NCBI RefSeq assembly: GCF_001278075.1
Contig: NZ_CP011340.1
Span: forward strand, 4,526,001 to 4,590,000
DNA: 64,000 nt
Direction of reading: 5' to 3'
Source: Streptomyces pristinaespiralis
GTDB taxonomy: Bacteria; Actinomycetota; Actinomycetes; Streptomycetales; Streptomycetaceae
The notes under the pieces were generated by a model, which searched no databases, was not told the origin of the DNA, and saw only the letters and a list, made by a program, of their open reading frames with translations. The translations under genes were made by a program, and so were the position numbers. Shown here piece after piece: positions 37,999 to 43,358 of this stretch; position 1 is the first letter of the stretch; each line of letters starts with the position of its first letter.

Positions 37999-38368
37999 CA
38001 ATCCTCATATCCGAGTGCCTGACGGGACATGGATCAACAGCCCGCTCGCATGACCGGCCGCCCCGTCGAAACGACGCGGCCCCCCGTCGCGAAGCTGTGT
38101 CCCGCCTGTGAGAGTCGAAGGACGGCCCTGTCGGTTGTCTGGGGCCGTTCAGCTCGCGGATGGTTGGCCGGAACCATGCCGTTTTCGCCGGATCCGGCCG
38201 ACATCACAGGGATCCCGCCCGCAGGGCTCCCGGCCCGTGCTACGCCGCCGTGTTCGGCCACCCCGGGACGGCGAACGTCGAAGGGCCCACCGCGAACGGT
38301 GGGGCCCTTCGACATCGTGCCGCCAGGACGTCGTACCCGACCCGGTCCGCGCCTGGCCGTCCACCGGG
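37999..38368. other. Gene-free 370-bp stretch upstream of lysyl oxidase
   Basis: Should hold the lysyl oxidase promoter and the hemolysin-III terminator (38277-38313). Frames here are shadows without ribosome-binding sites. Confidence 0.5.
38277..38313 (-). terminator. Hairpin downstream of the hemolysin-III gene (duplicate of 40672)
   Basis: Arms GTCGAAGGGCCC-ACCG / CGGT-GGGGCCCTTCGAC with the loop region CGCGAACG. It is almost identical to the hairpin at 40672-40709. It lies 56 nt beyond the hemolysin-III stop, in terminator position. Confidence 0.75.
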
Positions 38369-39160
38369 TCAGAGGGCGGCGAGGCAGATGGCGGTGTAGT
38401 GCGCCGCGAAGGCCGTCACAGTGAGTGCGTGGAAGACCTCGTGGTACCCGAACCAGCGGGGTGAGGGGTCTGGGCGCTGCAGGGCGTAGACGACTGCGCC
38501 GGCGCTGTAGAGAAGACCGCCGGCCACGATCAATATCAGTACGGCTGTCCCGCCGGTGTGCAGGAAGTCGGGCAGGTAGCGCACCGGTGCCCAGCCCAGG
38601 GCCAGGTAGCAGGGCGTGTACAGCCAACGGGGAGCCCCGACCCACAGCACGCGGAAGACGACGCCGGCCAGCGCGCCCGTCCATACGATCCACAGCAGGA
38701 CCGTCCGCTGACCCGGCGCGAGCAGGAGTACGGCCAGGGGAGTGCAGGTGCCGGCGATGATCAGGAAGATGTTGGCGTGGTCGAGGCGCCGCAGGACGGC
38801 CTCGCCGAGCGGCCCCCAGGTGCCGCGGTGGTACACCGCGCTCGTTCCGAACAGCAGCCAGGCGGTGACGGCGTACACGCCACAGGCAAGGACCGCCTGC
38901 GGCGTGCGGGCCAGAAGGATGAGGAAGACGCCTGCGATCAGCGAGGCGGGAACCATCCCCGCGTGGAGCCAGCCGCGCAGCTTCGGTTTGAGCGGCTCCA
39001 TGATGTCGGCTGCCCGCTCCACGAGAGCATCGACAGGGCCGGATTCTTCTCCCGCCCTGTCACCGGTCGATTCGGCCGGCCGGGCTGTTCCGCTGTCGGG
39101 GTGCGGCGGGCCGGAGGAGGCATGGTCATGTGCTGGGACGTGGGGATCATGGGCAGCCAT
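38369..39160 (-). CDS. Hemolysin III / PAQR-family membrane protein
   Basis: A 263-residue inner-membrane protein with seven helices after a 60-residue polar, His/Pro-rich N-terminus. Family residues are visible: TSAVYHRG after helix 2, RRLDHANIFLIIAGTCTP and the C-terminal FGYHEVFHALTVTAFAAHY, supplying the conserved Ser/His/Asp/His metal site of PAQR hydrolases. In bacteria these are linked to membrane homeostasis rather than haemolysis. The ATG start at 39160 is the longest; the extended N-terminus is unusual. It is monocistronic. Confidence 0.92.
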   Translation of the reverse strand: MAAHDPHVPAHDHASSGPPHPDSGTARPAESTGDRAGEESGPVDALVERAADIMEPLKPKLRGWLHAGMVPASLIAGVFLILLARTPQAVLACGVYAVTAWLLFGTSAVYHRGTWGPLGEAVLRRLDHANIFLIIAGTCTPLAVLLLAPGQRTVLLWIVWTGALAGVVFRVLWVGAPRWLYTPCYLALGWAPVRYLPDFLHTGGTAVLILIVAGGLLYSAGAVVYALQRPDPSPRWFGYHEVFHALTVTAFAAHYTAICLAAL

Positions 39161-39252
39161 GCGGTCATGCTAAGCAGCGTTCGACGGCGGCCTGATCTCG
39201 GATCTGCAGAAAAGCTACCCCTCATGCACTCCAAAATCTGTTCCCGCCGAAG

Positions 39253-39281
39253 TAGACATTGTGTGGCTCTGTGGCTATGGT
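39253..39281 (+). promoter_or_regulatory. Orphan housekeeping-type promoter
   Basis: -35 TAGACA (39253-39258), 17-bp spacer, -10 TATGGT (39276-39281). The match to the HrdB-type consensus is close. The nearest annotated gene downstream on this strand starts 680 bp away. Confidence 0.6.
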
Positions 39282-39443
39282 TTCTCTCGTAGTCAAGGTC
39301 GAAGGGCCCGGCCAGACATGAACTGGCGGGCAGCAGTACTGAGTTCGCAGTGCGGTGCGGTGGTGGAGTACCGAAGCCAGGGTTGTTGCAGGATGGCGAC
39401 GGGACTGACGGCCGTACCGGGTGGCCCGACAGGGGCTGCCATG

Positions 39444-39675
39444 AGCAGTACCGCAGTAAGTGCAGTAGGCAGTACCAGCAGTCGGTACACAGAGGTCTCT
39501 CAGTAAAGGCGCCGGGCTGCAGGCGCGCGTGCTGAGAGGTTCGGCAGTGGGGTTCCGAGCCGGAGCAGATGCAGGACGGGCGACGAGGCCGGCTGCCGGA
39601 CAAGGTGGCTTCCTGGAGCCACCAGCAGGTCGCAGTTCAGCAGTGCAAGCAGTACCGCAGTTCGCAGTATCAGTA
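39444..39675 (+). repeat. CAGTA repeat clusters
   Basis: Two clusters (39444-39505 and 39648-39675) share the 14-mer AGCAGTACCGCAGT and are rich in CAGTA, all in one orientation. A weaker relative, CAGCAGTACTGAGTTCGCAG, lies at 39331-39350. Confidence 0.7.
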
Positions 39676-39887
39676 GTTGGTTCAGAGGGAAGAACGGAGG
39701 AGTCGAGCGCCATCAGGATCGCCCGGACAAGAAGGATCGAGTCCGGGTACCGCAAGACCCCGGATAGGCAGGTGGTCCCCGGTCACGCATCCGCGATCCC
39801 CGCGCGTCCGCCCGACTTTCGGGCCGGTCCGCGGACCCAGTAGGCCGGCGCAGCACTAGGGCCGGCAGATGGTGTAGCAATTCCTTC

Positions 39888-39919
39888 GGGGCCCTGGTGC
39901 CGTACGGCACCAGGGCCCC
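39888..39919 (+). terminator. Perfect 14-bp-arm hairpin before the MerR-like gene
   Basis: Arms 39888-39901 and 39906-39919 with loop GTAC form a fully symmetrical 32-bp palindrome. It stands 44 nt before the next start, so it is either a terminator for the orphan unit or an attenuator-like leader hairpin. Confidence 0.7.
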
Positions 39920-39963
39920 TCCATGCGTTGCCCGGTCCCCGATACGTTCCACAACGAGGTGAG

Positions 39964-40302
39964 ATGACAGCAGACGACCCGCTTGGCCGTCTTGAAGACG
40001 ACGACTACCCCGCCTACACGATGGGGCGAGCAGCCGAGATGCTCGGCACCACCCCCGCCTTCCTGCGGGCCATCGGCGAAGCAAGGCTGATCACTCCGCT
40101 GCGCTCGGAAGGTGGCCACCGCCGCTACTCCCGTTACCAGTTGAGGGTCGCCGCCCGAGCCCGCGAAATTGTGGACCAGGGGACCCCTATCGACGCTGCG
40201 TGCCGGATCGTGATCCTCGAGGACCAACTCGAGGAAGCGCAGCGACTCAACGCCGAATACCGCCGCTCCGTAACCGACCAGCACCCTCGGACCGCAGCCT
40301 GA
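39964..40302 (+). CDS. MerR-like helix-turn-helix regulator
   Basis: A 112-residue protein with a MerR-type winged helix (about 18-62: YTMGRAAEMLGTTPAFLR, wing GGHRRYSRYQL). The C-terminal helix (about 75-105), with VILEDQLEEAQRLN, should give a short dimerisation coiled coil. No effector domain is present, so it is probably not a metal sensor. The wing motif GGHRRY is shared with BldC at the window's end. ATG 39964 follows GAGGTG. The preceding hairpin may control it. Confidence 0.88.
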   Translation: MTADDPLGRLEDDDYPAYTMGRAAEMLGTTPAFLRAIGEARLITPLRSEGGHRRYSRYQLRVAARAREIVDQGTPIDAACRIVILEDQLEEAQRLNAEYRRSVTDQHPRTAA

Positions 40303-40671
40303 CATGAGAGCGCCTGCCACCGCGCGCAGGCGCCGCAGCCCTCCGTGTCTCTCGACGGCCGCCCGCGCCCTGGCGGCGCAACCACAGGAACCGAGGGTCC
40401 CGTGAACCTTCGACGGAACCCTTGGTGCGTTGTGCACAGGTCGAGATCGGTCGGCTACTGCCCCCACGGTGAGCAGGCCAGGAGGGAGCACACGCCGACA
40501 CGTCCCGTGCCGGGCGGCGTACGGCCGGCCTGCCGGATCCGCTGATCAAAGTGCTCCGCCACCCCCAGGAGGAGCAGGCGGCGGAGCGAACGGCGGCCGG
40601 CAGTGAAGAAGGTCGCCCAGCGGGTCGGCGACATGCTCCGGGAGCCGCCGAAGGCAACTGGGGCGGGCAAC
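40303..40671. other. Gene-free stretch between the MerR-like gene and tRNA-Ser(GGA)
   Basis: No accepted gene. A frame from GTG 40402 encodes 47 residues with a Cys/His-containing WCVVHRSRSVGYCPHG segment, but its start lacks a ribosome-binding site and I leave it out. Confidence 0.4.
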
Positions 40672-40709
40672 GTCGAAGGGCCCCACCGCGAACGGTGGGG
40701 CCCTTCGAC
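40672..40709 (-). terminator. Terminator of tRNA-Ser(GGA) (duplicate of 38277)
   Basis: Arms GTCGAAGGGCCCCACCG / CGGTGGGGCCCTTCGAC, perfect 17 bp around a CGAA loop, 20 nt beyond the tRNA CCA on the - strand. Confidence 0.85.
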
Positions 40710-40731: not shown

Positions 40732-40816
40732 CGGAGGATACGAGATTCGAACTCGTGAGGGGTTGCCCCCAACACGCTTTCCAAGCGTGCGCCCTAGGCC
40801 ACTAGGCGAATCCTCC
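40732..40816 (-). tRNA. tRNA-Ser(GGA)
   Basis: 85-nt class II tRNA. Acceptor GGAGGAT/ATCCTCC, discriminator G. Loop TTGGAAA on CACGC/GCGTG gives anticodon GGA (complement of 40780-40782). CCA is encoded (40729-40731). Confidence 0.95.
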
Positions 40817-40927
40817 GCCGCAAACAATACAAGACGTTGAGGAGTGCTCGCGAACCCCTTCCCGATCTACGTTCCCGATCTCGTCCGGGGGTCATGACCA
40901 CCCCCTGGTATCGGGTAGCCTGGGTGC

Positions 40928-41014
40928 AGCCCCTCACGTGGCGCTATCTGACTGAACTCCCCCAGGGCCGGAAGGCAGCAAGGGTAGGTCGGCTCTGGCG
41001 GGTGCGTGGGGGGC
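40928..41014 (+). ncRNA. ffs: 4.5S signal recognition particle RNA (small SRP RNA)
   Basis: Contains the universally conserved SRP domain IV: CAGGGCCGGAAGGCAGCAAG (GGAA tetraloop region and asymmetric loop for Ffh binding), bracketed by pairing arms CCCCTCACG (40930) and CGTGGGG (41005). Located directly upstream of dnaX as in other actinomycetes. The exact ends are estimated from the stem. Confidence 0.9.
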
Positions 41015-41078
41015 GCTTGCGTTCCCGGGGGATCCGGGGCGGCTCCGGTTGTCCGTGGGCCCCGATAACCTCGTAGGT

Positions 41079-43358
41079 GTGTCGTCCCTTGCGCTGTACC
41101 GCCGCTACCGCCCCGAGTCGTTCGCAGAGGTCATCGGTCAGGAGCATGTCACTGACCCGCTCCAGCAGGCCCTGCGCAACAACCGGGTCAATCACGCGTA
41201 CCTGTTCAGCGGGCCGCGCGGCTGCGGAAAGACGACCAGCGCCCGCATCCTCGCCCGTTGTCTGAACTGCGAGCAGGGGCCGACGCCGACGCCCTGCGGC
41301 GAGTGCCAGTCCTGCCAGGACCTGGCGCGCACCGGACCCGGGTCCATCGACGTCATCGAGATCGACGCCGCCTCGCACGGTGGTGTGGACGACGCGCGTG
41401 AGCTGCGCGAGAAGGCCTTCTTCGGCCCCGCGAGCAGCCGGTACAAGATCTACATCATCGACGAGGCCCACATGGTCACCCCGGCGGGATTCAACGCCCT
41501 GCTGAAGGTGGTCGAGGAGCCCCCGGAGCACCTGAAGTTCATTTTCGCGACAACCGAGCCCGAGAAGGTCATCGGCACCATCCGGTCGCGTACGCACCAC
41601 TACCCGTTCCGCCTCGTCCCGCCCGGGACGCTCCGGACGTATCTGGCGGAGGTGTGCGGCCGGGAGGGCATCCCGGTGGAGGACGGCGTGCTCCCGCTGG
41701 TGGTACGGGCCGGCGCGGGGTCGGTACGTGACTCCATGTCCGTCATGGACCAGCTGCTCGCCGGCGCCGCCGACGACGGTGTGACATACGCCATGGCGAC
41801 GGCCCTGCTCGGCTACACGGACGGTTCGCTGCTCGACTCCGTCGTGGACGCCTTCGCGGCGGGTGACGGAGCCGCCGCCTTCGAGGTCGTGGACCGCGTC
41901 ATCGAAGGCGGGAACGACCCGCGCCGGTTCGTCGCGGACCTGTTGGAGCGGCTGCGCGACCTGGTGATCCTCGCCGCCGTGCCGGACGCGGGCACCAAGG
42001 GGCTGATCGACGCCCCGGCGGACGTGGTCGAGCGGATGCAGGCGCAGGCCGCCGTGTTCGGCGCCGCCGAGCTCAGCAGGGCCGCGGACCTGGTCAACAC
42101 GGGCCTGACCGAGATGCGGGGAGCCACGTCGCCGCGGCTCCAGCTGGAGCTGATCTGCGCCCGGGTGCTGCTGCCGGCGGCCTTCGACGACGAGCGGTCG
42201 GTGCGGGCCCGGCTGGACCGCCTGGAGCGGGGGGCGACGTTCTCGCCCGGTGGCCAGGGCCCCGCCATGGGATACGTGCCCGGGCCGGACGCCCAGGCGC
42301 ACGCGCCCGTCCCGCCGGGTGCCGGCCCCGCCGCCGCCCGTGCCGCGGCGCGCGGCGACGCGGCGCCCACGGTTCCCGCGCCTGCCCCGTCGCCGTCGCC
42401 TGCGCCCGAGCCGGTCGCGCCGCCCGTCGGGCAGCAGCCTCAGCAGGCGCCCCAGCAACCCCAGCGGCCGCCGCAGCCGGAGCCGCACCAGCAGCCCCAG
42501 CCGCAGCCGGCCGCCTCCCGCCCCGGTGCCTGGCCCGGGACCGCAGGCCCGGCCGGGGCTCCCGCGGAGCCGGCCCGTCGGCCCGGCGGCTGGCCCACGG
42601 CCTCCGCCCCCGGCCAGGGCGCGCCGCAGCCTGCCGCGCCGGCCCCCGCGCCCGCACCGGCCGCCGCGCCCGCCCCGGCCCCTGCGGCGACGCCCGGCGC
42701 CGGCCTGGCCCAGGGCGCCGGCCAGGTGCGGAACATGTGGCCGGAGATCCTGGAGGCGGTCAAGAACCGCCGTCGCTTCACCTGGATCCTGCTCAGTCAG
42801 AACGCGCAGGTGACCGGCTTCGACGGCACGACCCTCCAGCTGGGCTTCATCAACGCCGGCGCCAGGGACAACTTCGCGAGCAGCGGCAGCGAAGAGGTCC
42901 TGAAGCAGGCGCTCGCCGAGCAGTTCAACGTGCAGTGGAAGGTCGAGGCGATCGTCGACCCGTCCGGCGGCTCCGGCGGCCCGGGCGGCACCGCACCCCC
43001 GGCGGGCGGCCCCGGCGGCTGCGGCAGCCAGGGCGGCTACGGCCAGGGCAGGCCGCAGCCCGCCGCCCCCGCCCCCCAGCCCGCCCCCGCCGCACCGGCG
43101 CCGCAGTTCGACCGTGCCCCGTCGCAGCCGTCGCAGCCGTCGCACCAGGCGTCCGCACAGGCCGCCCCGGCGCCCGCGCCGCAGTCCTCGCCGGAGCCGC
43201 CCAGGTCCGCGGAGCCGTACGGACGGCCCTCGGTGTCCATCGAGGACGACGTTCCGGAGGAGGACGATCCGGACCTGGTCGACTCCGCGCTGTCCGGCCA
43301 CGACCTCATCGTGCGCGAGCTCGGTGCCACGGTCGTGGAGGAATATACGAACGAGTAG
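41079..43358 (+). CDS. dnaX: DNA polymerase III subunit gamma/tau
   Basis: A 759-residue clamp-loader ATPase. Walker A GPRGCGKT (Lys51), zinc-module cysteines Cys64, Cys73, Cys76 and Cys79, and Walker B IIDEAH near 127 are all present. Domains I-III span to about 375, then a long Pro/Gln/Ala linker (about 385-555), a tau-specific domain (about 560-640) and a second Pro-rich, acidic tail. GTG 41079 is chosen because family proteins start with SSLALYRRYRPE; TAACCT 7 nt upstream suggests a leaderless message. No A-AAA-AAG slippery site is seen, so a gamma frameshift product is not expected. Confidence 0.96.
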   Translation: MSSLALYRRYRPESFAEVIGQEHVTDPLQQALRNNRVNHAYLFSGPRGCGKTTSARILARCLNCEQGPTPTPCGECQSCQDLARTGPGSIDVIEIDAASHGGVDDARELREKAFFGPASSRYKIYIIDEAHMVTPAGFNALLKVVEEPPEHLKFIFATTEPEKVIGTIRSRTHHYPFRLVPPGTLRTYLAEVCGREGIPVEDGVLPLVVRAGAGSVRDSMSVMDQLLAGAADDGVTYAMATALLGYTDGSLLDSVVDAFAAGDGAAAFEVVDRVIEGGNDPRRFVADLLERLRDLVILAAVPDAGTKGLIDAPADVVERMQAQAAVFGAAELSRAADLVNTGLTEMRGATSPRLQLELICARVLLPAAFDDERSVRARLDRLERGATFSPGGQGPAMGYVPGPDAQAHAPVPPGAGPAAARAAARGDAAPTVPAPAPSPSPAPEPVAPPVGQQPQQAPQQPQRPPQPEPHQQPQPQPAASRPGAWPGTAGPAGAPAEPARRPGGWPTASAPGQGAPQPAAPAPAPAPAAAPAPAPAATPGAGLAQGAGQVRNMWPEILEAVKNRRRFTWILLSQNAQVTGFDGTTLQLGFINAGARDNFASSGSEEVLKQALAEQFNVQWKVEAIVDPSGGSGGPGGTAPPAGGPGGCGSQGGYGQGRPQPAAPAPQPAPAAPAPQFDRAPSQPSQPSHQASAQAAPAPAPQSSPEPPRSAEPYGRPSVSIEDDVPEEDDPDLVDSALSGHDLIVRELGATVVEEYTNE

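Follow-up and report, generated by a model that had tools for sequence, protein, structure and literature searches.

The locus and its transcription unit

The interval under study lies in a window of 64,000 nucleotides, the whole stretch of Streptomyces pristinaespiralis DNA that was analysed, and contains a promoter, CAGTA repeats, a duplicated 14-mer and a hairpin in front of a short MerR-type gene (Table 1). Streptomyces DNA matched a conserved block from about 39233 to 39929, and the stronger matches spanned promoter to hairpin (query positions 73–769). The first-pass annotation had described a strong promoter, nine CAGTA pentamers in one orientation within 342 bp, a 14-mer repeated 204 bp apart and a perfect hairpin with 14-bp arms. 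All four were confirmed, the promoter as a promoter-like site that was the only one returned by a promoter scan of 38900–40400. The description of the transcription unit as an orphan was wrong; it runs on into the MerR gene at 39964. The encoded protein carries a MerR helix-turn-helix domain (PF13411, 35.4 bits against a cut-off of 21.6), and a relative with 86% identity (P0097) is labelled HspR by one source. The unit is followed by a tRNA gene (40732–40816), a bacterial small SRP RNA (40925–41023) and a frame at 41049–43358 which, from its sequence, we take to resemble dnaX.

Table 1. Elements of the interval and the gene behind it, in window coordinates.
Feature	Position	Strand	Basis
Interval under study	39161–39963		Promoter, CAGTA repeats, duplicated 14-mer and hairpin all present
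Imperfect dyad AAATCT-N12-GTAGACAT, sharing bases with the -35 element	39234–39259	+	Conserved in leaders; probable MerR operator
Promoter-like site: -35 TAGACA, 17 bp, -10 TATGGT	39253–39281	+	Promoter scan; conserved columns in the leader alignment
5' hairpin, loop AGACAUGAA-like	39306–39331	+	Pairs kept in 59–66 of 66 leaders
Two stem domains (39353–39419 and 39420–39440)	39353–39440	+	RNAalifold; pairs kept in 61–66 of 66
Unpaired linker, GCAGUA-rich	39441–39495	+	Repeat counts and consensus fold
Three hairpin domains (about 39497–39539, 39540–39600 and 39604–39623)	39497–39623	+	Pairs kept in 63–66 of 66
Second unpaired linker, GCAGU/CAGUA-rich	39624–39690	+	Repeat counts and consensus fold
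3' core, multi-branched, highly conserved; basis of covariance model R1	39692–39889	+	Alignments, covariation
Perfect hairpin, terminator-like, no U run	39888–39919	+	Pairs kept in 62–66 of 66 leaders; compensatory changes
MerR-family (HspR-like) regulator gene, 112 aa	39964–40302	+	Pfam MerR_1, 1.2e-8; RBS-like GAGG at 39956–39959

A conserved multi-domain RNA fold

Folded as RNA, 39287–39930 gave a z-score of -7.4, and none of 20 shuffles was as low. The domains were mapped with RNAalifold on 66 full-length, non-redundant Streptomyces leaders, and in the fold over all domains each pair was kept in 59–66 of the 66 with many compatible changes. The pairs of the 3' core were kept in 76–88 of 88 Streptomyces leaders.

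A covariance model was built on 196 nt of the 3' core, and covariation was examined in 28 diverse copies, 23 from outside Streptomyces and five from divergent Streptomyces. In this alignment, which was fitted to the covariance model and thus favours the structure, 92.6% of the cells of the 47 core pairs were paired, both sides had changed in 22 of the 47 pairs, and the cells with both sides changed numbered 83 compared to 22.8 ± 4.5 in shuffles (0 of 500 as high). When the partner strand was slid, pairing fell to 29.6–45.9% and the both-side changes to 9–18 cells. Judged from these alignments, the interval is a large structured RNA.

Hairpins of the type CAG-A..GAA-CUG, resembling the one at 39306–39331, were seen by eye in leaders of other families. 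In the leaders of family f17 (L141, L142, L144 and L152), similar hairpins are repeated upstream of the core on GCAG/GCAGUA linkers like beads on a string, again by eye. At L134, L142, L143, L145 and L151, an AUG in the 3' strand of a core helix opens a frame that passes through the hairpin into MerR and so lengthens the protein; this AUG precedes the codons GTG TAG in the window copy.

One-way GCAGU linkers

CAGTA was counted at 39334, 39446, 39454, 39463, 39470, 39501, 39650, 39665 and 39671, with a tenth copy at 39838, where the window's own frequency predicts 0.16 per 401 bp. The opposite orientation, TACTG, occurs once in the interval, at 39337. The six densest 342-bp stretches for plus-strand CAGTA in the window all begin here, and the opposite orientation reaches at most two. 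Exact copies of the 14-mer AGCAGTACCGCAGT lie at 39444 and 39648.

The bias is shared by the relatives. In 88 leaders, CAGTA was found 481 times and TACTG seven times, compared to 75.8 and 13.4 in dinucleotide shuffles. The shorter GCAGT was found 991 times versus 171 in shuffles, and its complement ACTGC was likewise above shuffles (82 versus 30.8). In the consensus fold of the 66 leaders, 88% of the GCAGT bases were unpaired compared to 62% of all bases, with columns present in fewer than half of the rows taken as unpaired, which favours linkers. The linkers between the domains vary in length. For 20 cores of other families, the upstream 550 nt contained 62 GCAGT and 13 ACTGC in total; some of these leaders showed a strong bias (10:0, 6:0, 9:0 and 10:1), and elsewhere it was weak, in particular in the short f18 leaders. 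Linkers with this one-way bias suggest that actinobacteria possess a new RNA-binding protein with sequence specificity.

The promoter dyad

With identical spacing and at most two mismatches, the dyad was present in 85 of 88 Streptomyces leaders and in 18 of 20 leaders of other families. The source genome (8.5 Mb) has two sites at this stringency, each at one of its two leader copies. Exact sites in 61 Streptomyces genomes numbered 86, and 79 of them had an RNA core within 1 kb downstream. The remaining seven belonged to a longer leader (one), stood directly before a MerR gene (one) or accompanied leader fragments (five, two of them cut by contig ends). The covariance model found the core in all 31 dyad-site loci that were fetched. 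Thus, the dyad is a probable candidate operator of MerR, and a MerR protein acting on its own promoter would be the natural reading, with weaker sites possible elsewhere.

HspR is a MerR-family repressor of dnaK, and the downstream protein here is likewise of MerR type. The dyad is distinct from the HAIR sequence of HspR, and it was found only at its own unit.

Linkage of the RNA to the MerR gene

Of 105 RNA cores in the 61 Streptomyces genomes, 93 lay within 200 nt of a MerR match (E up to 1e-30); the median distance was 57 nt. In a separate check of 101 loci, 98 had a MerR match no more than 60 nt from where it was expected, three of them with broken genes. Outside Streptomyces, the same gene stood behind 18 of 20 cores inspected, as read from the output, with L140 and L150 as exceptions. 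The RNA therefore keeps a constant position before one gene family, as would a cis-regulatory leader.

The linkage is incomplete in both directions. Twelve cores had no MerR match: in the nine looked at, MerR was cut short, broken or gone, and of the other three, one ends with its contig and two are partial. Ten of the twelve still score at least 191 bits, one of these at a contig end, and no other conserved gene was noticed behind the eight MerR-less copies looked at in this respect. Conversely, MerR can exist without the leader, because 29 of 122 MerR relatives in the 61 genomes have no core (93 carry one) and some loci keep leader remnants or the dyad alone. BLAST found no leader at nine of 80 named MerR loci, and the model likewise found no core at any of them. 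Two of these nine (the MerR copies at L164:5892 and L194:5949) have lost the leader and keep the dyad with 0 and 1 mismatch directly before the gene; at L169, L182 and L193, remnants of the leader 3' end seem to be visible by eye. Tandem cores, each with its own promoter dyad, occur at L135, L140 and L143 of family f18. A MerR gene follows the second core at L135 and L143, and none was seen at L140.

The terminal hairpin

The hairpin at the end of the leader is a perfect 16+16 palindrome with a 14-bp stem and a 4-nt loop. It was not called by a simple terminator scan because it has no T run, and in this respect it departs from an intrinsic terminator. Termination without a U run is possible in Streptomyces. 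The distance from the hairpin to the MerR start is 44 nt which, together with the near-fixed linkage, bears out the suggestion of the first-pass annotation that the RNA is a long leader of the MerR-like gene.

With the 3' arm removed, the 5' arm of the terminator paired with GGGCC near the 5' end in 62–66 of 66 leaders. A long-range antiterminator is nevertheless not claimed, because GGGCCC is self-complementary and the f18 leaders that were printed lack the 5' partner by eye.

Distribution

DNA matches were found in 133 of 150 Streptomyces genomes, the source genome included, and among the matches listed many genomes had several. The second leader copy of the source genome lies near helicase, CBS and SCO5918-family genes. 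Among 394 genomes of the class, 82 were positive with the covariance model of the 3' core: 33 from Streptomyces and 49 from elsewhere, in 19 of 137 genera and in five families. Across the phylum, 296 genomes, drawn more thinly than for the class and with stricter filters, gave nine positives, all Streptomyces.

Matches were also present in 64 plasmid records, namely 61 from Streptomyces and one each from Embleya, Kitasatospora and Nonomuraea, with up to seven places per record. On NZ_CP108058.1 and other linear plasmids, up to seven RNA places on one Streptomyces plasmid lie beside stress-type genes. Among 60 plasmid records listed, 56 showed no annotated gene at the best place; two records are unannotated, and the gene table used for this check is incomplete. 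No sign of a phage or viral origin was seen: none of 50,697 phage records matched at E up to 1e-5 and one core pattern had no exact match in viral contigs.

Relation to stress genes and to S. coelicolor

The scan of genomes kept 80 of 574 confirmed loci as named loci, drawn from species other than S. coelicolor. Nearby genes encoded a cold-shock protein at 52 of the 80, a DEAD-box helicase at 47, a 'SCO5918 family' protein at 38 and a CBS protein at 34. By gene order, the corresponding places in S. coelicolor appear to be those of SCO5917 and SCO4688. PMC6009599 describes both as HspR homologues and counts them among 74 genes with heat-induced translation; polysome association at 42 °C was strongest for SCO5917 (9.2-fold). 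The same paper gives SCO5921 as cold shock, and PMC6637917 gives SCO4684 as cold shock and SCO4685 and SCO5920 as helicases.

The RNA–MerR family is probably tied to stress, because SCO5917 and SCO4688, apparent members by gene order, are among the heat-induced genes. That these two genes carry the leader is suggested by synteny with relatives, some of which lack it at that locus. If SCO5917 does carry it, the leader would be a concrete post-transcriptional candidate behind the reported heat-induced polysome loading of that gene.

A simple RNA thermometer at the ribosome site was rejected. In 40 leaders, the mean unpaired probability of the site, computed from secondary structure in a 320-nt context, was 0.44 at 25, 30, 37, 42 and 50 °C alike. 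Therefore heat, if it acts, would work through a protein or a larger rearrangement.

Comparison with catalogued RNAs

A scan of the window with Rfam 15 returned no family in the region, and the first-pass annotation knew of no described family to which it belongs. At E up to 5, eight weak hits were obtained, all below the gathering cut-off and all over the terminal hairpin. The literature searched, mostly open access and without supplementary tables, gave no description of the RNA; it included PMC6009599, PMC6637917, PMC2631018, PMC11109978, PMC2864571, PMC8079986, PMC8780764, PMC11678152 and PMC12286853. A transcript survey of S. avermitilis lists 188 cis-regulatory and 139 sRNA units with few Rfam matches, so data on the RNA may already exist unnamed. 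This large structured RNA occurs in most of the sampled Streptomyces genomes and in four other families of the class, and it appears uncatalogued in Rfam 15 and in the literature searched.

Like riboswitch and T-box attenuated leaders, the RNA is 5' and has a structured domain directly before a hairpin and a gene start. It differs from them in its length of ~600 nt, its extra domains and repeat-filled linkers, the lack of an Rfam-known aptamer and a hairpin without a U run. The gene behind it encodes a regulator and offers no clue to a small ligand. A short single-stranded motif repeated in an mRNA leader also recalls the trp leader read by TRAP, but the motif here is GCAGU/CAGUA rather than the triplets read by TRAP and its spacing is irregular.

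The ROOL and GOLLD families are in Rfam, and the Rfam scans gave no match of their type in sequence or structure. In length class and in its many hairpin domains the RNA resembles OLE, ROOL and GOLLD as presented in PMC12286853, where OLE has protein partners, ROOL measures 659 nt and ROOL and GOLLD are described as phage or prophage RNAs. It differs from these RNAs in having no Rfam 15 match and a MerR gene behind it, and no match to it was found among the phage records. The dauA, livJ and asfR motifs of Streptomyces are structured leaders as well, and the asfR motif precedes a regulator gene (PMC11109978); they are described there for other genes, and 'MerR' has no occurrence in the main text of that paper.

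Interpretation

The original observation is real and goes beyond its first reading, as the locus belongs to a family of large structured RNAs that form a unit with a MerR gene and their own dyad. Conserved structure, covariation and linkage bear out the structured RNA of ~600 nt proposed in the first-pass annotation together with its proposal of a MerR leader. With reasonable though far from full confidence, 39161–39963 comprises the promoter of the MerR-type gene that follows and its 5' leader, a structured RNA of ~600 nt with several domains; the folded RNA stands in front of a small stress-type regulator gene, which it probably controls. Transcription would start near 39287 and the leader would fold as predicted. 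The 3' core beside the hairpin may then decide whether RNA polymerase (or a ribosome) goes on into merR. The single-stranded GCAGU/CAGUA linkers could be read by a protein or by a factor linked to the ribosome, and the MerR protein may act back on the dyad at its own promoter.

Two explanations that dispense with a functional RNA fold as the main element fare poorly. The CAGTA repeats could be DNA-binding sites, for instance direct repeats for a BldC-like MerR protein, with RNA structure secondary; a set of protein-binding sites was one of the options in the first-pass annotation. Repeats that all point one way in front of a MerR-type gene would suit such sites, but their start-to-start spacing is irregular, with peaks at 6–10, 15–16 and 23 nt and no multiples of the DNA turn, the one-way motif falls mostly in unpaired RNA linkers between conserved helices, and the conserved promoter dyad is already an operator candidate; we consider this explanation improbable. 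Still further down the scale, and hardly credible, is a decayed or unusual protein-coding gene, or chance. The longest stop-free runs of 91–235 codons per leader invite the thought of a gene and are not unusual at high GC, but gap lengths versus homologues ignore the frame (246, 550 and 265 for remainders 0, 1 and 2 on division by three), neither of two frames tested in the interval matched a Pfam family, and compensatory change is strong. A coding frame was rejected on these indels and the Pfam result; the conserved frame that the first-pass annotation had named as evidence against an RNA was looked for and did not appear.

In the more serious rival, the unit exists to make the RNA, which would be large, act in trans or as a scaffold and stop at the hairpin. 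MerR, reached by read-through, would be its dedicated transcription controller, and the GCAGU linkers would dock many copies of an RNA-binding protein. This is a minority reading, doubtful on the present evidence and kept alive because of the size of the RNA, the almost exclusive dyad and the RNA copies without MerR. The size is within the range reported for ROOL in PMC12286853, and the dyad was found only at the unit or its remnants. Most of the twelve MerR-less cores still score highly, and tandem leaders can share one MerR gene behind the second (L135 and L143). A pure cis-regulator would not need those twelve of 105 cores, of which at least one is at a contig end and two are partial. Against a product RNA stand the nearly constant spacing at which MerR follows 93 of 105 cores and the several species that lost the leader yet kept MerR; the nine MerR-less cores looked at may be recent decay, as their MerR is cut short, broken or gone. 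The best reading, favoured because of this linkage and the place of the hairpin, is still that a leader of unusual length controls a MerR gene that regulates itself; we hold it to be moderately probable. RNA, dyad and MerR gene make up a self-contained regulatory module, which is also present on plasmids. More speculatively, and rather unlikely at present, the RNA could represent a class of large bacterial RNAs not seen before, namely a folded, modular scaffold whose single-stranded GCAGUA arrays gather many copies of an RNA-binding protein, acting beyond its own mRNA and governed by a MerR with the RNA's promoter as its main or only DNA target.

Hairpins flanking the unit

Two nearly identical GC-rich hairpins (GTCGAAGGGCCC ... 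GGGCCCTTCGAC) at 38274–38313 and 40670–40709, 2.4 kb apart, bracket an HlyIII gene, the leader RNA and the MerR gene. By eye, the copy at 40670–40709 is one base longer; a genome search without gaps, at up to three mismatches, returned only the copy at 38274–38313. A 12-mer of these hairpins recurs inside the leader at 39298–39309, with five matches in the window compared to 0.04 expected.
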